A stretch of 17,451 bases of DNA, from contig JAKLLI010000059.1 in assembly GCA_023150195.1 (NCBI GenBank), positions 1 through 17,451 of the forward strand, read 5' to 3'. Of this stretch, positions 5,131 through 14,580 are shown piece after piece; positions within the stretch are counted from its first letter, which is position 1, and every line of letters begins with the position of its first letter. Made by a program: the position numbers and the translations under genes. The stretch is from Azonexus sp. GTDB lineage: Bacteria > Pseudomonadota > Gammaproteobacteria > Burkholderiales > Rhodocyclaceae. The notes below the pieces were generated by a model. It was not told the origin of the DNA, searched no databases, and worked only from the letters and a program-made list of their open reading frames with translations.

Positions 5131-6331
5131 TTGTTTCGCGCCCTGATGTATTCCCTGTTGACGGCGGCAGTCGCCCTGCCGCTGGGCTATTTCGTCGAAG
5201 CCTGGATGGGCTGGGTGCTGTTTTACATCGGCCTCAGCGTCCATCTGGCCATCCACTATCGCAACTTTTCCCGCCTCGAGCGCTGGACGCGCCAGCCGAT
5301 TCTCGACCCCAATCTGGAGGGCGATGGCGAATGGGCGGACGTTTTCCGTCGCCTGTATCGCCATGAAAAGGAAATGCTCGGCAAGATCGAGCAGCGGGAA
5401 CGCGATATTGGCCGCCTGATTGCCGCCGTGCATGTGATGAATGACGGCGTGGTGCTGCTCGATGCGCAGTTCCAGATTCAGTTCTGCAATAAGACCGCCG
5501 AACGGCAACTGGGCCTGGATTCCGTCACCGATCGCGGCCTGCCGATTGCCGATATCGTGCGCCAGCCAGAGTTTGTCGAGTACCTGGCGAACGCCGATTT
5601 CACCCGACCGCTGATCCTGCATCTGGATCGCTATTTCGAGCGCGTGCTCTCGCTGCCGCGATTTTGTCGCCAACGTTTCGCACGAGTTGCGTACACCGCT
5701 GACCGTACTCTCTGGCTTTGTCGAAACCCTGCTCGAAATCGACGTCGACCGCGAAGACAGGCTGCGTTATCTGGCGCTGATGGGGGAGCAATCCTCGCGC
5801 ATGCAGTCGATTGTGCAGGATCTTCTGACCTTGTCTTCTATTGAGTCTGCGCCACCGCCGGAGGATGAACTGGTGGACATGACCTCACTGCTCGACAAGC
5901 TGAGACGGGACGCCGAAGCCCTGTCTGCCGGTCGACACCGGATTTGCCTCGAAATTGACGGGCGTGGCGACCTCAACGGTAACCACGCCGAACTCCTCAG
6001 CGCCTTTGCCAATCTGGTATCGAACGCGGTGCGCTATACCCCGAATGGCGGCAAAATCACCCTGATCTGGCGTGTATCGGCGAAGGGCGCGGAATTTGCC
6101 GTGCAGGACACAGGTATCGGGATTGACCAGCAACATATACCCCGCCTGACCGAGCGCTTCTACCGCGTGGATCGCGGGCGTTCGCGCGATGCCGGCGGGA
6201 CTGGCCTGGGCCTGGCCATTGTCAAGCATTCGCTCAGCCGCCATCAGGCGAATCTTGAAATTACCAGCCAGCCGGGTGAGGGCAGCCGTTTTGCTGCGGT
6301 GTTTCCCGCTTCCCGCGTCAGCCTCCACTGA
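5131..6331 (+). pseudogene. phoR: Phosphate regulon sensor kinase PhoR, disrupted by an out-of-frame deletion
   Basis: PhoR is the membrane histidine kinase that phosphorylates PhoB. The first part reads from TTG 5131 (GGGGAG at 5115-5120) and encodes two N-terminal membrane helices (about 6-21 and 28-44) and a PAS domain, up to RYFERVLSL at about 5653. The kinase half continues in a different frame from about 5657: RDFVANVSHELRTPL (the H-box), the N-box NLVSNAVRYTP, DTGIGI, ERFYRVD and GTGLGLAIVKH, ending at 6331. Intact PhoR has roughly 25-28 residues (end of PAS, then xRDVTxxxRLExMR) between these parts, and they are absent. The event is therefore best read as a deletion with length of 2 mod 3. 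The downstream ORF opens only at TTG 5687, after the catalytic histidine codon. Without frameshifting, the original frame ends at 5844. This is either a real null allele or an assembly error. Confidence 0.9.
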
Positions 6332-7843: not shown

Positions 7844-9514
7844 TCAGAAGAGCTCGGCGCTGCCGCGCGTGCCACCCTCCGCCATCGACAGGCGCAGCTG
7901 CCCGATGCGGAAGCGATTGACGATGCCGGCCATGTGTTCCGACATGCCGCGGATGTCGTCGGCAAAGCCTTTGGTGTGATGGGCTGATTGGTTGGCATGC
8001 GACATCAGGTGCTCGATGGCATTCATCTGTTGCACGATCTGGCGGCTCGCCTGGTGGCCATCGCCGACCTGAGTGCCGATTTGTTCGACCATCGAAATCA
8101 CGGCCTGGGCTGAGTGTTCGATATCCTGCATGGCGCTGCCTGCCGTGCTGGCCAGTTGAATGTTGTGCTTGATGTCATCAACCACCGTGCGCATCAGTTC
8201 GGTCGATTGTTCTGCCGTGCGGCCGATTTCGGTGACTTGAACGCTGATCGCGTGGGTGGCACCGCTGACGCGCTCGGCCAGCTTGCGAACCTCGTCGGCA
8301 ACCACGGCAAATCCGCGGCCGCTCTCGCCGGCACGCGCCGCCTCAATCGCCGCATTGAGCGCCAATAAATTGGTTTGATCCGCGATTTCGCGAATTTCCC
8401 GCACCAGCCCGGAAATATTCTGCCCGGCACTGGCCAGGGCGAAGACCCGCTCGGCGGCGACTTCCACGTTATCCGCGAGTTGGTGGATATGGGCGACGGT
8501 GTGGCGGATGGTGTGGCCATTGTTCTCGGCCTGCTTGCCCGAATGCGCTGTCAGTTCGCCAGCCTTGCCGGTGTCGGCGTGAATGCGGTCGATCTGGCCC
8601 TGAATGGCGTTGACCGCCGCCATGATTTCCCGCGACGAGCCGTTGCCGTTTTCGGCGATGTGCGCCAGCGTCACCGCCGACTGATGCATTTCGATGGCGG
8701 CGATGCCGTTACGCTCGATCACGGCGGCAATCTCGGTCAGGCTGTGCTGAACCGTGTCCAGCAGTTGGTTGAAGGCCTGGATGGAGCGCCCGATTTCATC
8801 GTTGTTGATGATGGGCACGCGCTGGGTGAAATCCAGGGTGTCCGCAATGTGGATCATGGTGGCTTCCATGTCGCGTAGCGGCTTGGCGATACGCCGGTAA
8901 AGGGCCCAGCCAAAAAAGCTCAAAAGGCCGAGTAGACCGACGAAGGCGGCGCCCAGTTGCACCAGGGTTGCCTGCAGGCTGCTTGCCAGTTGGGCGATAC
9001 TTTCGTCCTTGGCTCGCCGTTTTTCGATGCGCAAGGTTTCGAGAATGCCGCTGATTTCTGCCAGGTAAGGCGCCACGTTGCCCGACAGCATGGCGCTGGC
9101 CATGAGCGGCTGGCCGGCACTGGCGAATTGCGCCATCTCGTCAATGGCAGCGAAGTAAAGGGTCAGACTCTCGCCGGCCTCGTCCAGCAGCGCCCGTTGC
9201 GTCTCGTCGCTGGCTTGCGGCCGTTGTACGGCAATCGCGTTTTCCAGCGCGGTGCGTTGCTGTTTCAGGATGGCGTGTTCTTGCCGGGCGAGATCGGCGG
9301 ACTGGGTGTGGGCTAGCGTGACGGCGGCAATCTGCAGGCTTTTCAGTTCGGCCTCCAGTTCGACCGAGGCCAGGAAGCCGGGAATGGCGCCGTCGGTCAA
9401 CTGCCGCACCATCGCGTTATTGCGCTCGAACTGTTGCAGGGCAATGGCCCCCAGTGCCAGCATGGCAAGCAGCATGAAGCCCATGAGCAATATCAGGCGA
9501 TGCGCAATTTTCAT
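7844..9514 (-). CDS. Methyl-accepting chemotaxis protein
   Basis: This is a transmembrane chemoreceptor that controls CheA kinase activity. The 556 residues comprise a first membrane helix at 7-27 and a periplasmic helical domain of about 155 residues (probably four-helix bundle). A second membrane helix lies at about 183-206, a HAMP domain at 207-259 and a long cytoplasmic coiled coil. The conserved hairpin tip is at about 372-415 (EIADQTNLLALNAAIEAARAGE and GFAVVADEVRKLAERV). The C-terminus lacks an NWETF-type CheR tether. Start ATG 9514 (complement) has a GGAG site at 9521-9524. The ligand is unknown. Its position between two phosphate-related genes makes a phosphate-linked signal conceivable, but nothing in the sensor domain shows this. 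Confidence 0.95.
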   Translation of the reverse strand: MKIAHRLILLMGFMLLAMLALGAIALQQFERNNAMVRQLTDGAIPGFLASVELEAELKSLQIAAVTLAHTQSADLARQEHAILKQQRTALENAIAVQRPQASDETQRALLDEAGESLTLYFAAIDEMAQFASAGQPLMASAMLSGNVAPYLAEISGILETLRIEKRRAKDESIAQLASSLQATLVQLGAAFVGLLGLLSFFGWALYRRIAKPLRDMEATMIHIADTLDFTQRVPIINNDEIGRSIQAFNQLLDTVQHSLTEIAAVIERNGIAAIEMHQSAVTLAHIAENGNGSSREIMAAVNAIQGQIDRIHADTGKAGELTAHSGKQAENNGHTIRHTVAHIHQLADNVEVAAERVFALASAGQNISGLVREIREIADQTNLLALNAAIEAARAGESGRGFAVVADEVRKLAERVSGATHAISVQVTEIGRTAEQSTELMRTVVDDIKHNIQLASTAGSAMQDIEHSAQAVISMVEQIGTQVGDGHQASRQIVQQMNAIEHLMSHANQSAHHTKGFADDIRGMSEHMAGIVNRFRIGQLRLSMAEGGTRGSAELF

Positions 9515-9588: not shown

Positions 9589-9628
9589 CTGTCACCGAAG
9601 TGTCAATCGGCTGTCACGGCGCGTTCAT
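9589..9628 (+). promoter_or_regulatory. Pho box array (PhoB binding site) upstream of the plcP-like gene
   Basis: Four heptamers begin exactly 11 bases apart: CTGTCAC at 9589, GTGTCAA at 9600, CTGTCAC at 9611 and the degenerate CGTTCAT at 9622, each separated by 4 bases. This matches the PhoB site architecture (direct CTGTCAT repeats with 4-bp spacers). A -10-like TATCTT lies at 9639-9644, exactly 10 bases after the last repeat. That is the spacing seen at classical PhoB-activated promoters, in which the Pho box replaces the -35 element. Confidence 0.85.
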
Positions 9629-9638
9629 GGCGAGCGGC

Positions 9639-9644
9639 TATCTT
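9639..9644 (+). promoter_or_regulatory. Candidate -10 element of the PhoB-dependent promoter
   Basis: TATCTT matches four of six bases of TATAAT and is 10 bases downstream of the final Pho repeat. The start site would fall near 9650-9652, at or next to the ATG of the metallophosphoesterase. The mRNA may therefore have almost no leader, and no Shine-Dalgarno sequence is visible there. Confidence 0.5.
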
Positions 9645-9651
9645 CGCCGCC

Positions 9652-10434
9652 ATGCCCAAGGTACGCAGCGTTTTTCTCTCGGATATTCACCTCGGCACGC
9701 GGGCGTGCCAGGCGGATGCCCTTCTCGATTTCCTGCGGGAACATCCCGCCGAAAATACCTTTTTGATTGGTGACATCGTCGATTTCTGGGCGATGAGCCG
9801 CAGCATCTGCTGGACGCAGGCGCAGAACACCGTGGTGCAGAAACTGCTGCGCCGGGCGCGGCACGGCGAGCGGGTCGTCTTTATTCCCGGCAATCACGAC
9901 GAAGCCCTGCGTGATTACTGCGGCATCGTGTTCGGCGATGTCGAGGTGGCCAGCGAGCTGGTGCATGGCACGGCCGATGGCCGGCGTTTTTTGCTGATTC
10001 ACGGCGACCAGTTCGATCAGGTCACACGCCACCATCGCTGGGTGGCGGTGCTGGGCGACAAGGCCTATGACCTGCTGGTCCGCCTCAATCTGGGCTTGTC
10101 GTGGATACGCCGCAAGCTGGGCCGGCCCGGTTACTGGTCGCTCGCCGGCTACGCCAAGCGCAAGGTGAAGACGGCACTCAATTTTATTTTCGACTTCGAG
10201 GAATCGGCCGTCCGCCATGCACGTGAGCGCGGGCTGGACGGGGTGATCTGCGGCCATATCCACTGGGCGACGATTCGCGATATCGACGGCCTGGCCTATA
10301 TCAATTGCGGCGACTGGGTCGATTCCTGTACCGCGATCATCGAGCACTTCGATGGCCGCCTGGAATTGATCGAGTGGGGCCATGTGCGGAGCGCGCAGGC
10401 ACTGCTGCCGGCCCCCGCAGCTCTGGAGAACTGA
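9652..10434 (+). CDS. plcP: PlcP-like metallophosphoesterase (LpxH/COG2908-type fold), probable phospholipase C
   Basis: The 260-residue cytoplasmic protein carries the calcineurin-like dimetal motifs: SDIHLG (D11, H13), GDIVDFW (D41), GNHDE (N81), HGDQFD (H117) and CGHIHW (H202, H204). It resembles the LpxH-like family annotated as UDP-2,3-diacylglucosamine pyrophosphatase. That family includes PlcP of Sinorhizobium, which cleaves phospholipids to diacylglycerol and a phosphorylated head group under phosphate starvation. The Pho box directly upstream and the GT4 glycosyltransferase directly downstream favour PlcP over a role in lipid A synthesis. I chose ATG 9652 because it begins just before the conserved SDIHLG strand; upstream TTG codons lie within or before the Pho box. 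The next gene starts immediately after the stop codon (TGA-ATG). LpxH activity cannot be excluded from sequence alone. Confidence 0.8.
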   Translation: MPKVRSVFLSDIHLGTRACQADALLDFLREHPAENTFLIGDIVDFWAMSRSICWTQAQNTVVQKLLRRARHGERVVFIPGNHDEALRDYCGIVFGDVEVASELVHGTADGRRFLLIHGDQFDQVTRHHRWVAVLGDKAYDLLVRLNLGLSWIRRKLGRPGYWSLAGYAKRKVKTALNFIFDFEESAVRHARERGLDGVICGHIHWATIRDIDGLAYINCGDWVDSCTAIIEHFDGRLELIEWGHVRSAQALLPAPAALEN

Positions 10435-11577
10435 ATGCGTGTACTGATGGTGTCCGATGTGTATTTCCCGCGGGTCAATGGCGTTTCGACCTCGATTGAA
10501 ACCTTCCGCCGCGGTCTGGCGGCCGAAGGGATCGACGTCCGTCTGGTGGTGCCGCGTTACGGCGATGAGGCCGATAGCGAGGGCATCATCCGCGTGCCCG
10601 GTCGCCCGGTGCCCGGTGATCGCGAAGACCGGCTGGTCGGCTGGCGGGGGATGCACAAGGCGGTGCGACAGGCCGCTCAGGGGTGTGCGCTGATTCATGT
10701 GCAAACGCCCTTTGTGGCCCATTACGCGGGACTGGCGGCAGGGCAGGCGCTGGGCGTGCCGGTGCTGGCGACCTATCACACGCTGTTTGAGGAATATCTC
10801 GCGCATTACGCGCCCTTCGTGCCGGCCGGCTGGTTGCGTGGGCAGGCGCGGGCCTTTTCGCGCCGCCAGTGCAATGCGCTGGATGCGGTCGTGGTGCCGT
10901 CGACGGCCATGCGCGAACGCCTTGCCGCCTATGGCGTGACGGCGCCCATGCACGTTTTGCCGACCGGCATTCCGCTCACACAGTTCGCCGGCGGCGACGG
11001 CGCAGCCTTCCGGGCCCGCCATGGCATTTCGCCTCAACACCCGCTGGCGCTGTTTGTCGGACGGGTGGCGCATGAAAAAAACATTGGTTTCCTGCTGGAG
11101 GCCTTGATCCATGCGCAACAGCAGGCGCCGGGGGCGATGCTGATGATCGCTGGCGAAGGGCCCGCGATGGGGGATTTACGCCAGCGTGTGCAGCAACTGG
11201 GCCTGGTCGACAGCGTGGTATTCATCGGCTATCTCGACCGACGTCAGGATCTGCCGGCCTGCTATGCGGCGGCAGATGTGTTTGCTTTTGCCTCGCGCAC
11301 CGAAACCCAGGGGCTGGTGCTGCTGGAAGCGATGGCGGCGGGGGTGCCGGTCGCGGCATTGGCGGCCATGGGCACCATCGACATTCTGGCGCCAGGGCAG
11401 GGCTGTATCGCCCCGCCTGATGACACCGCCGCCTTCGGGCAGGCGCTGGGTGCCTTGCTGGCCGATGCGTCGCGACGGCAGGTGCTCAAGCAGCAGGCGC
11501 CGGTCTATGCGGCGCAGTGGTCAGATCGTGCGATGGCGGCCCGTCTGGCCCGTCTCTATCGCGAATTGTGCGTTTGA
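10435..11577 (+). CDS. GT4-family glycosyltransferase, probable diacylglycerol glycosyltransferase (Agt-like)
   Basis: This 380-residue GT-B fold enzyme has the N-terminal acceptor domain with the GT4 start VSDVYFPRVNGVST (6-19) and a C-terminal nucleotide-sugar domain. The latter has GRVAHEKN (209-216) and the E-x7-E motif at E290/E298 (ETQGLVLLEAMAAGVPV). Such retaining enzymes include SqdX, MgtA and the Agt enzymes that glycosylate diacylglycerol in phosphate-starved bacteria. The ATG abuts the plcP stop, with GGAG in the end of plcP, so the pair is one translationally coupled unit. Its acceptor is probably the diacylglycerol released by PlcP. The sugar donor cannot be read from the sequence. 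A terminator follows immediately. Confidence 0.85.
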   Translation: MRVLMVSDVYFPRVNGVSTSIETFRRGLAAEGIDVRLVVPRYGDEADSEGIIRVPGRPVPGDREDRLVGWRGMHKAVRQAAQGCALIHVQTPFVAHYAGLAAGQALGVPVLATYHTLFEEYLAHYAPFVPAGWLRGQARAFSRRQCNALDAVVVPSTAMRERLAAYGVTAPMHVLPTGIPLTQFAGGDGAAFRARHGISPQHPLALFVGRVAHEKNIGFLLEALIHAQQQAPGAMLMIAGEGPAMGDLRQRVQQLGLVDSVVFIGYLDRRQDLPACYAAADVFAFASRTETQGLVLLEAMAAGVPVAALAAMGTIDILAPGQGCIAPPDDTAAFGQALGALLADASRRQVLKQQAPVYAAQWSDRAMAARLARLYRELCV

Positions 11578-11611
11578 AAACTGCGGTCAATCGTCGGTCG
11601 ACCGCAGTTTT
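11577..11611. terminator. Bidirectional intrinsic terminator
   Basis: AAAACTGCGGTC (11577-11588) pairs perfectly with GACCGCAGTTTT (11600-11611), a 12-bp stem with an 11-base loop. The A-run on the left and T-run on the right serve as the U-tract for each strand. It sits between the convergent glycosyltransferase and cyclic-nucleotide-binding genes and so ends the plcP operon. Confidence 0.85.
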
Positions 11612-11623
11612 CCCGGTTCGCGC

Positions 11624-11998
11624 TCAGATATCCTCGATCACCGGCAGCAAACGGTCGGTGGCGCGCAAGCGTTCCGCCATCACGCGCATGACCTGCATGG
11701 CAAAAAACGGGGTGTTCTGGATCAGGAATTGAAAGCGCTTTTCGTCGATGGCGACGAATTCGCAATCCGTGGTCGCCGTCACCGTGGCCGAGCGCGGGCC
11801 GGGGCAGACCAGGCCGGTTTCGCCGACGATGTTGCCATGCTGGAGGATTTCCACCTTGCGGTTGCCGACATGGACATCTGCCGTGCCGGCGGCCAGGACG
11901 TACATCTGGTGGCCTTCATCGCCTTCGACAAAGAGGGTGTCGCCGGCGGCGACGCGAATAATCACCGGGTTGTTGGAAAACAATTCGAAAAAAACCAT
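11624..11998 (-). CDS. Stand-alone cyclic-nucleotide-binding (Crp-type) domain protein
   Basis: This small protein (124 residues) is a single cNMP-binding beta-barrel domain. It shows AAGDTLFVEGDEG at 17-29, VLAAGTADVHVG at 34-45 and a phosphate-binding cassette with GNIVGE (55-60) and PRSATV (68-73). It then has a C-terminal helix ending at the stop. There is no helix-turn-helix, kinase or channel domain, so it is not itself a DNA-binding regulator. It may bind a nucleotide and act on a partner protein. The start ATG 11998 (complement) has a modest AAGG upstream. It lies between the two glycosyltransferase units on the opposite strand. Function unknown. Confidence 0.85.
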   Translation of the reverse strand: MVFFELFSNNPVIIRVAAGDTLFVEGDEGHQMYVLAAGTADVHVGNRKVEILQHGNIVGETGLVCPGPRSATVTATTDCEFVAIDEKRFQFLIQNTPFFAMQVMRVMAERLRATDRLLPVIEDI

Positions 11999-12043
11999 GC
12001 TTGTGCCTTGGTGTCGGGGGAAAAGGTTTGTAGCACGCGAGCG

Positions 12044-12093
12044 TTTACAGGGTGTTTTCGGAAATGTGACAGGCGTGCGCGATGAACTGTCAT
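12044..12093. promoter_or_regulatory. Weak Pho-box-like half-sites in the divergent region upstream of dgkA
   Basis: On the minus strand CTGTCAC (12066-12072) and CTGTAAA (12044-12050) begin 22 bases apart, twice the Pho repeat period, with a degenerate middle unit. On the plus strand one CTGTCAT occurs at 12087-12093 without a neighbour at 11 bases. These are suggestive of PhoB control of one or both divergent genes but are far weaker than the array at 9589. Confidence 0.25.
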
Positions 12094-12141
12094 CAATGCT
12101 TAGCCTTGGCTGATTACCGTGAGGGCTTTCATGGAGGTGGC

Positions 12142-12561
12142 ATGCAGGAAATCGATCCTTCGGCGCTGGGTCTGGACCCGGCCAATGAGTCCCCGTTCAA
12201 GGGCAAGACCGGCCTGCGCCGGGTATGGAATGCCTTTCGCTATTCGCTCGACGGCCTGCGCGCCGCCTACCTGTGCGAAGACGCTTTCCGCCAGGAAGTG
12301 CGACTGGCGCTGATCCTGATCCCGCTGGCGCTGTGGTTGCCGGTGGGCTGGCTGGGCCGGGGCTTGATGCTGGCCAGCGTGCTGCTGGTGCTGGTGATCG
12401 AATTGCTTAATTCCGCGATTGAAGCGGTGGTTGACCGCGTCAGTCTGGAAAATCACCGGCTGGCCAAGCGTGCCAAGGACATCGGCAGCGCGGCGGTGCT
12501 GGTGTCGCTGCTGCTGGTGGTTGTGGTCTGGGGCAGCGTGTTGATGAATGGAGTGGTCTGA
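12142..12561 (+). CDS. dgkA: Diacylglycerol kinase DgkA
   Basis: DgkA is the small integral-membrane kinase that turns diacylglycerol into phosphatidic acid, returning it to phospholipid synthesis. The 139-residue product has an amphipathic N-terminus with EDAFRQE (46-52) and three membrane helices. The catalytic region ELLNSAIEAVVDR (87-99) includes E87, N90, E94 and D98, and KDIGSAAV begins at K112. These match the active-site residues of E. coli DgkA. I chose ATG 12142 because GGAGGTGG (12133-12140) lies just upstream; an in-frame ATG at 12082 would add 20 unlikely residues. About 20 extra N-terminal residues remain compared with E. coli. The stop overlaps the start of the second glycosyltransferase by one base, linking the diacylglycerol kinase with glycolipid synthesis. 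Confidence 0.93.
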   Translation: MQEIDPSALGLDPANESPFKGKTGLRRVWNAFRYSLDGLRAAYLCEDAFRQEVRLALILIPLALWLPVGWLGRGLMLASVLLVLVIELLNSAIEAVVDRVSLENHRLAKRAKDIGSAAVLVSLLLVVVVWGSVLMNGVV

Positions 12562-13679
12562 TGCTGAACATTGCCTTCGTGACCGAAACCCATCCGCCAG
12601 AAGTCAATGGCGTGGCCATGACCGTGGGACGGCTGGTGGGCGGCCTGCGTCAGCGCGGCCATCGGGTGGACGTGGTCCGCCCGCGCCAGGCCGGGGATGG
12701 CGATGGCAGCAGCGATGACATGCTGGTGGGCGGTCTGCCTTTGCCCGGCTATCCTGCGCTGCGCTTTGGCTTGCCGGCCGGGGCGCAGTTGCGCCGTCGC
12801 TGGCGGGAGGAGCGTCCCGATCTTGTTCATGTGGTGACGGAAGGACCGCTCGGCTGGTCGGCCGTGGCCGCTGCACGCAAGCTGGGCATTCCCGTGACCT
12901 CTGGCTTTCATACCAATTTCGATCATTACAGCGTGCATTACGGCATGGGCTGGATGCGTCCGGCGGTTGCCGCCTATTTGCGCATGCTGCACCGACGGAC
13001 GCGCGCCACCATGGTGCCGACCGAGGCCCTGGCCGCTGAACTGGCGGGCGCCGGGATTCCCGGCGTGCGGGTGGTGGGGCGGGGCGTCGATACGGCCCTG
13101 TTCTCGCCAGTGCGGCGCGATCCGGTGTTGCGGGCGAACTGGGGGGCCGATGAGGCGGCGCCGGTCTGCCTCTATGTCGGTCGACTGGCCCCGGAAAAGA
13201 ATTTGCCGCTGGCGGAAAAATGCTTTGCCGCGATTCAGGTCTGGGAGCCGGCGGCGCGCATGGTGTGGGTGGGCGATGGTCCCGCCATGGCTCGCCTGAA
13301 GGTAGAGCATCCGGATCACCATTTCGCCGGGGTTCGGGTCGGCGAGGATCTGGCCCGGCATTACGCCAGTGCCGATCTGTTCATTTTTCCGAGTCTGAGC
13401 GAAACCTACGGCAACGTGGTGGCCGAGGCGATGGCTTCCGGGGTGCCGGTGGTGGCCTATCGCAGTGCCGCCGCCGCAGAGCTGGTGGTGGATCGGCGAA
13501 ATGGTGTGCTGGCCTCGCCCGGCGATGAAAAGGCTTTTGTGGCTTCGGCCCTCTGGGCGCTGGAAGACGCCGGGCATCTGAACGGCATGCGCCATGCGGC
13601 GGCGGAATCCATGCTGCGGCGCAACTGGCCGGCGGTGATCAGCCGTTTCGAGTCGGTGGCCTGGGAGGCCATCGGCTGA
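12561..13679 (+). CDS. Second GT4-family glycosyltransferase (SqdX/MgtA/Agt-like)
   Basis: This 372-residue GT-B enzyme has TETHPPEVNGVAMTVGRL (8-25) at the N-terminus, GFHTNFDHYS (115-124), GRLAPEKN (207-214) and the E-x7-E motif E281/E289 (ETYGNVVAEAMASGVPVVAY). These are hallmarks of lipid-directed retaining GT4 enzymes such as SqdX and MgtA. It is recognisably related to, but clearly different from, the glycosyltransferase at 10435. The ATG overlaps the dgkA TGA (TGATG) with GGAG at 12550-12553, so translation is coupled. The acceptor is probably diacylglycerol or a monoglycosyl diacylglycerol. Donor sugar unknown. No clear terminator follows before the TRAP genes. Confidence 0.85.
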   Translation: MLNIAFVTETHPPEVNGVAMTVGRLVGGLRQRGHRVDVVRPRQAGDGDGSSDDMLVGGLPLPGYPALRFGLPAGAQLRRRWREERPDLVHVVTEGPLGWSAVAAARKLGIPVTSGFHTNFDHYSVHYGMGWMRPAVAAYLRMLHRRTRATMVPTEALAAELAGAGIPGVRVVGRGVDTALFSPVRRDPVLRANWGADEAAPVCLYVGRLAPEKNLPLAEKCFAAIQVWEPAARMVWVGDGPAMARLKVEHPDHHFAGVRVGEDLARHYASADLFIFPSLSETYGNVVAEAMASGVPVVAYRSAAAAELVVDRRNGVLASPGDEKAFVASALWALEDAGHLNGMRHAAAESMLRRNWPAVISRFESVAWEAIG

Positions 13680-13728
13680 GTCCCGATGTCATGGCCGCGT
13701 AACATGCTGCGGCTAAGGTGCTCCGATC

Positions 13729-14580
13729 ATGCCTATTGCCTATCGCTTTCCTGTGTGCCGGTCGACGCGCCCGGCGGTCGTTTTTTGCCTTGGACTGTTG
13801 TTGACCGCGCTCGCCGGATGTACGCCGCGAACGCTGATTCAGTCCGAATTGGCGGATGCCCTCGCGGCGCAAGGGCAGGTGGCAGAGGATGATCCGCTGC
13901 TGGCACGGGATGCGGCTCCCTTTTACCTGAAACTGTCTGAATCCGTGTTGCGCGACCAGCCGGGCCACCGGGCGCTGGCCGAGTCGGTCGCCGCCGGGTT
14001 TGCCGGTTATGCCTATGCGTTTGTCGCTTTCGAGGCCGACCGTCTGGAATCCACGGATGCCAACGGCGCCACCCGCCTGCGGCAGCGCGCTGCCCGGCTT
14101 TACCGCCGGGCCCATTTCCATGCCCGGCGGACGCTGGCTGCGCATGTGCCGGGGGGCGATGGCGCGCTGAGCGACCCCCGGGCGCCGCTGGTATTGCGTC
14201 GCGAGGACGTGGGCTTGGCGTATTGGGCTGCGGCAGCGTGGGGCGGCTGGATTTCCCTGTCCAAGGATGATCCCGACGTGGTGGCCGATCTGCCGCTGGC
14301 GATCCGTCTGGCCGACGTCGCCGCGCAGGTAGACCCGGATTGGGGCGCTGGCAGCTTGAAGAGCCTGCAGGCGACCTTCGAAATGGCCCGTCCCGGCGGT
14401 CAGCCCCGTCAGGCGCTGGCCGGATTCGATGCGTCCATTGCGCTGGCCGGCAATGCCAGGCCGGGGCCGCTGCTGGCCAAGGCCGAGGCGTATGCGTTGC
14501 CGCTGGGTGACCGGCCCCTTCGCCTTGCAGGATCGCGTGCTGCGCGAGCGTGCGGCCTGGTTGCTGACGCAATCCCCTGA
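13729..14580 (+). CDS. TRAP transporter TatT lipoprotein (TPAT component), C-terminus frameshifted
   Basis: TatT proteins are helical, TPR-like periplasmic lipoproteins that form a complex with a DctP-type binding protein in TPAT transporters, best known from Treponema. The N-terminus is a lipoprotein signal with lipobox LAGC (C31). Internal features such as AAAWGGWISLSKDD and a DPDWGAGSLKSLQATFEM stretch fit the family. After LPLGDRP (about 14515) the annotated frame becomes arginine- and alanine-rich nonsense. Another frame from 14519 reads FALQDRVLRERAAWLL and ends SPDLF at 14590, the expected family C-terminus. An extra C in the run 14515-14518 or a short out-of-frame deletion explains this; my recollection of family alignments suggests some residues are missing. 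The start is ATG 13729, without a strong Shine-Dalgarno sequence. It precedes the binding-protein gene. Confidence 0.75.
   Translation: MPIAYRFPVCRSTRPAVVFCLGLLLTALAGCTPRTLIQSELADALAAQGQVAEDDPLLARDAAPFYLKLSESVLRDQPGHRALAESVAAGFAGYAYAFVAFEADRLESTDANGATRLRQRAARLYRRAHFHARRTLAAHVPGGDGALSDPRAPLVLRREDVGLAYWAAAAWGGWISLSKDDPDVVADLPLAIRLADVAAQVDPDWGAGSLKSLQATFEMARPGGQPRQALAGFDASIALAGNARPGPLLAKAEAYALPLGDRPLRLAGSRAARACGLVADAIP

Follow-up and report, generated by a model that had tools for sequence, protein, structure and literature searches.

Gene layout and promoter boxes

The window, a stretch of 17,451 nt from Azonexus sp., contains four genes which we located from the ORF list and translations, arranged in two short units on the forward strand. 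The first unit consists of plcP (9652-10434), which codes for a phospholipase C-type metallophosphoesterase with a GNHD motif and a Pfam Metallophos match of 51 bits, and of GTa (10435-11577), which begins immediately 3′ of the plcP stop codon and codes for a GT4 glycosyltransferase of a separate clade. The second unit consists of dgkA (12142-12561), which codes for a diacylglycerol kinase paralogue (Pfam DAGK_prokar, 115 bits; cut-off 22.3), and of a further GT4 glycosyltransferase gene, GTb (12561-13679), whose start codon overlaps the dgkA stop (TGATG). The best glycosyltransferase domains in Pfam, which was searched with eight proteins of the window, score 119 bits in GTa and 121 bits in GTb. 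Between the two units, on the reverse strand, lies a gene for a single-domain cNMP-binding protein (11624-11998; PF00027, 65.7 bits), whose membership in the set is unsure; of the 80 named loci (the best of 324), 35 contain a relative of it. Upstream of plcP are pstSCAB-phoU-phoB-phoR, named by eye, and a gene for a PhoD-like phosphatase recognised through Pfam. An initial annotation of this DNA had reported a PlcP-like phosphoesterase, two GT4 enzymes and DgkA clustered beside pst-pho genes, which the ORFs and Pfam matches confirm. It had also described them as one island from 9652 to 13679; the genes do occupy these coordinates, but as two units split by the reverse-strand gene and not as one run. 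A single four-gene operon was rejected because that gene and a second promoter box separate the units. The most likely start of dgkA is 12142 rather than 12082, where a longer ORF begins; GGAGGTG precedes the ATG at 12142.

An array of four 7-mer PHO-box half-sites with 11-bp spacing (9589..9628, forward strand) begins 63 bp upstream of plcP and accounts for the top three PHO scores in the window. It ends 10 nt before a -10 element, TATCTT (9639..9644, forward strand), which is followed after 7 nt by the ATG. In 65 of 80 named relatives (the best 80 of 324; these 65 loci passed the set alignment limits and the other 15 were dropped), the half-sites are kept at -62/-51/-40/-29, one base closer to the gene than in the window itself, and a TATCGT-like block is kept at -12 to -7. 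The plcP mRNA is probably leaderless, with a predicted transcription start. With a matrix whose training set comprised plcP promoters only, we detected a PHO-like box with its -10 element before dgkA as well (12087..12120, forward strand: CTGTCATCAATGCTTAGC, 10 nt, TACCGT). This box scores 17.3 bits, against 15.8 bits at the 99th percentile of background; its downstream half-site is weak, and the 10-nt gap to the -10 element is the same as at plcP. A box at about -55 reaches at least the 95th percentile of background in 33 of 44 dgkA upstream regions and at least the 99th in 14 of 44, these regions coming mostly from near relatives and not being independent. Negative controls reached at least the 95th percentile in 1/69 (GTa), 0/29 (PhoB) and 0/25 (PhoU) cases. 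With the same matrix, matches were obtained for the cNMP-binding gene (17/35) and a chemoreceptor gene (4/4), which indicates either further Pho genes or loose scoring, and no PHO box was found before the window's phoD. In several loci that lack dgkA, GTb has the same box instead. Judging from these boxes, the plcP and dgkA units are likely to be under phosphate-shortage control through putative binding of PhoB.

Identity of the phosphoesterase and the glycosyltransferases

The phosphoesterase is of the PlcP type and not LpxH, and phospholipase C activity is predicted for it. It scores 39.4 bits on the LpxH model TIGR01854 (cut-off 190.35), as against 224.4 bits for the true LpxH of the same genome, which sits on another contig. 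In a quick tree, 45 PlcP rows and 19 LpxH rows separate with a support of 100, seven of the LpxH rows being long branches and 4 of 23 LpxH loci having given no row. An LpxH identity, which the initial annotation had named as evidence that would count against it, was rejected on the sub-cut-off score, the separate true lpxH of the genome and this split. In agreement with a PlcP assignment, the protein is a metallophosphoesterase near, yet outside, LpxH, and its gene is linked to phosphate starvation by a PHO box and an adjoining glycosyltransferase gene.

PlcP-Agt remodelling is proven in other bacteria, according to the available parts of the sources (PMC8528852, PMC4796936, PMC9239053). The systems of SAR11, Agrobacterium and Methylosinus share with this locus a PlcP-type enzyme, a GT4 gene directly behind it, a PHO box and a phosphate-starvation setting. 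In contrast, the glycosyltransferase behind plcP in Azonexus belongs to another clade, a second glycosyltransferase and a dedicated DgkA are added, and both glycosyltransferases have Glu rather than Asp at the catalytic acid. The likeness to PlcP-Agt systems that had been drawn earlier is upheld for PlcP, the PHO boxes and the lipid type of the GT4 enzymes, but not for Agt in the strict sense. Agt, the glycosyltransferase of PlcP-Agt systems, converts DAG to MGDG or GADG. We recognised it by a catalytic His together with GRVAxEKN, by the Asp in FPSxTDTFG and by grouping with plcP-linked Agt. The His is present in both enzymes; GTa contains GRVAHEKN as well as SRTETQG, and GTb contains GRLAPEKN, which is one letter off. 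The Asp, which is Asp256 in the SAR11 Agt (PMC8231724), is replaced by Glu in both window enzymes, in 107/107 other GTa rows and in 87/89 other GTb rows, and is retained in 47 of 51 Agt-clade rows. In the SAR11 Agt studied, the Asp was needed, and changing it to Glu removed >90% of the activity, as stated in the available part of the source (PMC8231724). Since neither GTa nor GTb has this residue, their donor or acceptor may differ.

In a quick, midpoint-rooted tree of 138 glycosyltransferase rows, neither window enzyme groups with plcP-linked Agt: GTa falls in a clade of 43 rows (stem 2.06, support 100) and GTb in one of 44 rows (98), the latter being sister to the 51-row Agt clade (99). The Asp/Glu difference and this tree position led us to reject GTb as a plain Agt. 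GTb scores 242 bits against an HMM of plcP-linked Agt taken from outside the host family, and when a plcP-linked Agt was searched against the window's own genome (77% complete), GTb ranked first and GTa second (172.6 and 91.2 bits), the third-best match reaching 38 bits. This ranking bears on whether the GT4 enzymes serve polysaccharide or LPS synthesis, sharing with plcP merely neighbourhood and Pho control, a role that the initial annotation had likewise set against its own proposal. The GT4 family is huge, and solved structures gave generic GT4 matches only, both of which would agree with such a role; however, the two enzymes are the best matches to plcP-linked Agt in their genome, they track plcP in occurrence and position, and no other polysaccharide genes were seen beside them in the window (ORF list and Pfam); we consider such a role highly improbable. 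These comparisons support GTa and GTb as lipid-type GT4 enzymes, with predicted products, that are not Agt in the strict sense.

In NCBIfam, both enzymes score highest on the GlcNAc-PG synthase model (NF053787; 139.7 bits for GTa and 156.4 for GTb, under the cut-off of 480), and the second match of GTa is alpha-monoglucosyl-DAG synthase (NF049988; 123.6 bits, also below cut-off), on which GTb reaches 69.6 bits. The enzymes of these models are likewise lipid-acting GT4 proteins, and the scores of the window enzymes amount to less than one third of the cut-offs. Three plcP-linked Agts score 61.5, 73.8 and 79.6 bits on the GlcNAc-PG synthase model, and the higher values of GTa and GTb would be consistent with GTb or both enzymes glycosylating phosphatidylglycerol in the manner of glucosaminyl-PG formation, while DgkA feeds PG synthesis. 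We consider this highly improbable, as both scores lie far under the cut-off, synthesis of a phosphorus lipid would be odd under phosphate starvation, and a domain of the type of GpgD, a deacetylase, was absent from the eight Pfam-searched window proteins and was not seen by eye in the rest. In the available part of the source, GpgD carries out the second step of the glucosaminyl-PG pathway (PMC12713373).

A stepwise chain, in which one glycosyltransferase would make monoglycosyl diacylglycerol and the other would extend it to the diglycosyl form with the role of DgkA unchanged, is conceivable but rather doubtful. It fits the far-apart clades of GTa and GTb, the better score of GTa on the monoglucosyl-DAG synthase model, and the description of plcP beside glycosyltransferases, one of them forming di- and tri-glycosyl DAG (PMC4796936, part of the text). 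On the other hand, several genera have just one of GTa and GTb close to plcP, and in P. aeruginosa DAG is the acceptor of two glycosyltransferases that differ in the sugar they add (PMC8528852, part of the text). P. aeruginosa resembles Azonexus in having one PlcP (PA3219) and two glycosyltransferases (Agt1, PA3218; Agt2, PA0842), with PHO boxes before both glycosyltransferase units; unlike here, the second glycosyltransferase is encoded elsewhere in the genome, and the word 'kinase' is absent from the main text as far as it was available (PMC8528852).

Conservation of the gene set and the role of DgkA

The gene-neighbourhood survey that had been suggested with the initial annotation found that the set recurs. 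In the host family, all four genes were present in 23 of 53 genera, and in 25 of 53 the distance from plcP to dgkA was no more than about 8 kb, each genus being represented by one plcP-bearing genome out of 136 family genomes with plcP. Gene orders vary among the 23 four-gene genera; by eye, 22 of them have dgkA between the two glycosyltransferase genes. The other 28 genera, some of them with loci truncated at contig ends, showed no dgkA that close to plcP, and outside the host family dgkA was similarly near plcP in only 5 of 67 loci (from 66 genomes, chosen from the better matches listed, of 178 phylum genomes with plcP). These two counts indicate that a linked DgkA is unneeded for PlcP remodelling generally. 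Glycosyltransferase type in the survey was assigned by best tblastn score, and the tree moved two family rows (L186 and L221) to the Agt clade. Across 199 family genomes, and among the matches listed, GTa occurred in 113 of 136 genomes with plcP vs. 8 of 63 without, and GTb also co-occurred with plcP; kinship is ignored in these counts and is partly corrected for by a contrast within genera. This contrast used 20 genera with both plcP-bearing and plcP-free members: GTa was more frequent in the plcP-bearing members in 14 genera and equally frequent in the remaining 6, with no genus showing the reverse. For GTb the contrast was weaker, with 11 genera higher, 8 equal and 1 lower. Match limits were 1e-10 for plcP, 1e-90 for GTa and 1e-80 for GTb, genome lists were compiled by hand, and the protein rows were restricted to sequences free of N whose length fell in a set range. 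The cluster is a conserved gene set, more than chance would produce. Its two glycosyltransferase clades, present in most plcP-bearing family genomes surveyed, would be overlooked or wrongly named were Agt deemed the sole enzyme of the pathway.

By sequence, DgkA is a paralogue dedicated to the cluster and a predicted diacylglycerol kinase. Its best solved-structure matches are diacylglycerol kinase (105 bits), and six positions that we take to be E69, N72, E76, D80, K94 and D95 of E. coli DgkA are kept in 77/77 cluster rows, the window included, and in 26/26 others. The genome encodes three DgkA. In a tree of 138 columns, in which 53 of 92 inner branches are open and from which 7 of 39 DgkA places were left out, the DgkA of the cluster loci form a grouping distinct from the remaining DgkA of the genus. 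On these two observations, an ordinary dgkA located there by chance was rejected. A point against the module proposed below is that DgkA consumes ATP and remakes a phospholipid precursor, which runs counter to phosphorus saving.

The initial annotation had suggested that DgkA could return diacylglycerol to phosphatidic acid once phosphate returns. The chemistry suits this role, and enzyme made during starvation would still be present at recovery; moreover, among the seven dgkA genes of the host family that head a unit, a box of at least the 95th percentile precedes only one, from the window's own genus (0/6 outside it). The suggestion is weakened, however, by the starvation-type box before dgkA in near relatives and by the position of 17 of 24 dgkA genes in the host family, which follow another member of the set at a distance of 75 bp or less, and we regard it as unlikely. 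The box before dgkA suggests that DgkA works in diacylglycerol balance during starvation rather than in recovery, which is an argument and not a proof.

A proposed lipid-remodelling module and its precedents

Starting from the observed genes, conserved boxes, gene set, separate clades and kept catalytic residues, we propose, with a probability of roughly 55%, a PhoB-controlled lipid-remodelling module in which PlcP releases diacylglycerol, two glycosyltransferases act on it and DgkA acts on the surplus. When phosphate is short, PhoB would bind the boxes before plcP and dgkA and switch on plcP-GTa and dgkA-GTb. PlcP would then cleave the phosphate head group off membrane phospholipids; GTa and GTb would each add a sugar from a UDP-sugar to the resulting diacylglycerol, giving two types of phosphorus-free glycolipid. 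Diacylglycerol not taken by the glycosyltransferases would be phosphorylated by DgkA to phosphatidic acid, a step that would prevent its build-up and supply the small phospholipid pool still required. In this scheme PhoB binding, the substrates, the sugars and the direction of flux are predictions. The cluster probably swaps phosphorus-containing membrane lipids for sugar lipids, and it is a so far undescribed variant of PlcP-Agt remodelling rather than a wholly new kind of system. More tentatively, it may constitute a separate betaproteobacterial four-enzyme branch, with Glu-type, non-Agt glycosyltransferases that perhaps make other glycolipids and with a duplicated, Pho-controlled DAG kinase as a valve for diacylglycerol during starvation. 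PlcP remodelling yields diacylglycerol, and the parts of the literature available contained no statement of how remodelling cells limit it; a dedicated DgkA in a Pho-linked set is a direct, testable answer to its control.

The initial annotation had not recognised the layout as a described system. This still holds for the four-gene set, of which the literature searched yielded no description, as it yielded none of a DAG kinase branch acting as a starvation-time valve. It does not hold for the pairing of a DAG kinase with PlcP or an LpxH-named protein, the novelty of which is lowered by two precedents, each cited from part of its text (PMC5082522, PMC10734472). Flexible phosphate islands of HIMB59 carry DGK, 'LpxH' (possibly PlcP) and a glycosyltransferase together with pst and phoRB; the authors see no direct P-related function for the glycosyltransferase or the kinase, and the available text does not read the islands as lipid remodelling (PMC10734472). 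For P. putida BIRD-1, the available text mentions no gene cluster and leaves the kinase family unstated, and DagK is not among the proteins that it names as absent from the phoBR mutant (PMC5082522). DagK was enriched there with PlcP under phosphate depletion, and the discussion calls both PHO-dependent (PMC5082522).

The plcP locus, its conservation and published counterparts

The window, an entire contig (G000:C221) of a 2.5-Mb draft genome that is 77% complete, carries pstSCAB-phoU-phoB-phoR and then a PhoD-like phosphatase gene upstream of plcP (9652-10434, forward strand). Between the phosphatase gene and plcP, and divergent from the latter, lies a chemoreceptor gene (4HB-HAMP-MCP; 7844-9514, reverse strand). 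The gene of the first GT4 glycosyltransferase, GTa (10435-11577, forward), directly abuts plcP, and a gene for a stand-alone cNMP-binding domain (11624-11998, reverse strand) precedes dgkA (12142-12561, forward), which overlaps the second GT4 gene, GTb (12561-13679, forward), in the letters TGATG; TRAP-transporter genes follow. Part of the window's genes were named by Pfam and the remainder by eye. By PlcP, the closest named relatives among the best 80 of 324 are Azonexus and Dechloromonas, and a relative of the cNMP-binding protein occurs in 35 of these 80 loci, mostly behind GTa. The phoR gene is split into two overlapping frames (5131-5844 and 5687-6331, within 5131-6331), a frameshift that is either genuine or an assembly error.

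Judged by sequence comparison, the cluster is a genuine, conserved and Pho-linked gene set, predicted to be a new variation on PlcP-Agt remodelling. plcP is present in 136 of 199 family genomes and in 178 of 397 phylum genomes. The extended layout proposed in the initial annotation was borne out by a neighbourhood survey of 53 family loci (one genome per genus), of which 41 have a GT4 gene of the types seen here, 25 have dgkA and 23 have all four genes; in the latter, plcP stands before, behind or opposite the others, and 22 of them have dgkA flanked by GTa and GTb (order counted by eye). Outside the family, 67 plcP loci picked among the better matches listed included a glycosyltransferase gene in 53 and dgkA in 5, and dgkA was counted by eye in 43 of the 80 named loci (best 80 of 324). 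Across the 199 family genomes, uncorrected for kinship, GTa occurs in 113/136 with plcP vs. 8/63 others, and GTb in 117/136 vs. 16/63. In the 20 genera whose members vary in plcP, presence of plcP went with a higher frequency of GTa in 14, the same frequency in 6 and a lower one in none; for GTb the frequency was higher in 11, the same in 8 and lower in 1.

A search of PubMed Central, outside which most subscription papers lie, found no paper on plcP with two glycosyltransferases and dgkA. The word "kinase" is absent from the main text, as available, of a paper with six plcP neighbourhoods (PMC4796936), and from the accessible portions of PMC8528852, which describes PlcP with Agt1 and Agt2, and of PMC9239053, which leaves an MGDG enzyme yet to be found; the accessible Caulobacter text (PMC6445935) has none of the terms sought. 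Two papers, as far as their accessible text goes, count against novelty of the cluster. Phosphate-starved P. putida raises both PlcP and DagK, and the discussion terms both PHO-dependent, although the proteins listed as absent from the phoBR mutant include PlcP and not DagK (PMC5082522). HIMB59 phosphate islands carry DGK, "LpxH" and a glycosyltransferase, with no tie to lipids drawn in that portion (PMC10734472).

Identity of the phosphoesterase and glycosyltransferases

The phosphoesterase had been described as PlcP-like, and this description holds, as it does not fall inside true LpxH enzymes. LpxH as its identity is ruled out by its score on TIGR01854 (39.4 bits vs. a cut-off of 190.35), by a separate true LpxH on another contig of the same genome (224.4 bits), by a tree of 45 PlcP and 19 LpxH rows in which one branch with support of 100 parts the two sets, and by the motif, which is GNRDF in 19/19 LpxH rows and GNHD in every extracted PlcP row.

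GTa and GTb most likely function like Agt, the diacylglycerol glycosyltransferase of known PlcP-Agt systems, yet they fail its tested marks. A plcP-linked Agt of another family matched GTb at 172.6 bits and GTa at 91.2, the next match in this 77%-complete genome being 38. A midpoint-rooted tree of 138 glycosyltransferases divides into GTa, GTb and a third group of Agts, most of whose plcP loci lie beyond the family; GTb is closer than GTa to this Agt group. According to the accessible part of PMC8231724, SAR11 Agt has Asp256 where MshA has Glu, and Asp-to-Glu substitution loses over 90% of activity. This column holds Asp in 47/51 Agt-clade rows, Glu in 107/107 GTa and 87/89 GTb rows, and Glu in both window proteins. 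Among curated lipid GT4 models, GlcNAc-PG synthase is best for GTa and GTb and monoglucosyl-DAG synthase second for GTa, all under cut-off; three plcP-linked Agts have about half the GTa/GTb score on the former. Four plcP-linked glycosyltransferases of one family (L242, L257, L275 and L283) fall in the Agt clade with Glu rather than Asp.

The diacylglycerol kinase

The window DgkA aligns throughout its length to a solved diacylglycerol kinase, presumably the E. coli enzyme, at 105 bits, and the six positions checked are all kept in 77/77 cluster rows, its own among them. The genome encodes three DgkA. In a tree of this short protein, with many open forks, a branch with support of 99 sets cluster copies apart from DgkA kept elsewhere in the same genus, and seven order-level DgkA fall on the cluster side. 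Three loci from a different family within the order (L273, L285 and L286) also have dgkA behind plcP and an Agt-clade glycosyltransferase gene, and in a locus from elsewhere in the phylum (L282) dgkA precedes plcP, so its linkage to plcP may have arisen more than once.

PHO boxes and promoters

The top three scores of the window for PHO boxes (putative PhoB sites) all lie within a single array upstream of plcP; since 3/40 one-strand shuffles contained an equally high single score, it is the array that carries weight. Half-sites at -62, -51, -40 and -29 recur in 65 of the 80 named relatives (those meeting alignment limits; best 80 of 324), together with a TATCGT-like -10 element at -12, which would place the mRNA start at or beside the start codon, so that the plcP transcript is probably leaderless. 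In the window (9639-9654), 7 nt separate the end of this element from the ATG, compared with 6 nt in relatives; no Shine-Dalgarno sequence was seen.

Other genes were scanned with a matrix trained solely on plcP promoters, against a background of 4,860 windows. Upstream of dgkA, at about -55, the match is made up of CTGTCAT and, 4 nt further on, a weaker half-site, then a 10-nt gap and a TACCGT-like stretch; it scores 17.3 bits in the window, and among close, non-independent relatives 33/44 dgkA regions reach at least the 95th percentile and 14/44 at least the 99th. The box speaks for DgkA action in starvation, in which case DgkA, from its known chemistry, would limit diacylglycerol build-up during PlcP action and send part of the diacylglycerol back to phosphatidic acid for phospholipids still required. 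Among the controls, the 95th percentile was reached by GTa in 1/69, PhoB in 0/29, PhoU in 0/25 and PstS in 5/5; the cNMP-binding gene (17/35) and chemoreceptor (4/4) also reached it, as did GTb in 10/51 overall, the box standing before GTb in several loci lacking dgkA. In the 53 family loci, boxes of this rank precede plcP in 34/39, GTb in 11/16 and GTa in 6/13 when these head a unit, vs. 1/13, 5/20 and 1/17 when internal. dgkA is internal in 17/24, and when heading a unit it has a box in only 1/7, in a locus (L226) of the window's own genus.

In L123, L126 and L134, GTb lies opposite plcP-GTa and has a box to itself (simple scores of 14, 14 and 12.8, respectively), and dgkA was not found within the stretch examined. 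In the window, a PHO-like box with a -10 element (13686-13719; 18.1 bits, above the 99th percentile) precedes the TRAP TatT gene at 13729; such a TRAP gene turned up in none of the 80 named loci (best 80 of 324), and one of 53 family loci (L208) has DctP and DctM relatives 5 kb before plcP. The chemoreceptor, with a PHO-like box at about 9581 and such a box in 4/4 loci scanned, may be a phosphate-taxis receptor. In the loci of two relatives (L074, 12667-13356; L106, 12027-12713), a gene for a secreted, perhaps outer-membrane, protein diverges from dgkA or GTb, with PHO-like boxes nearby on the opposite strand.
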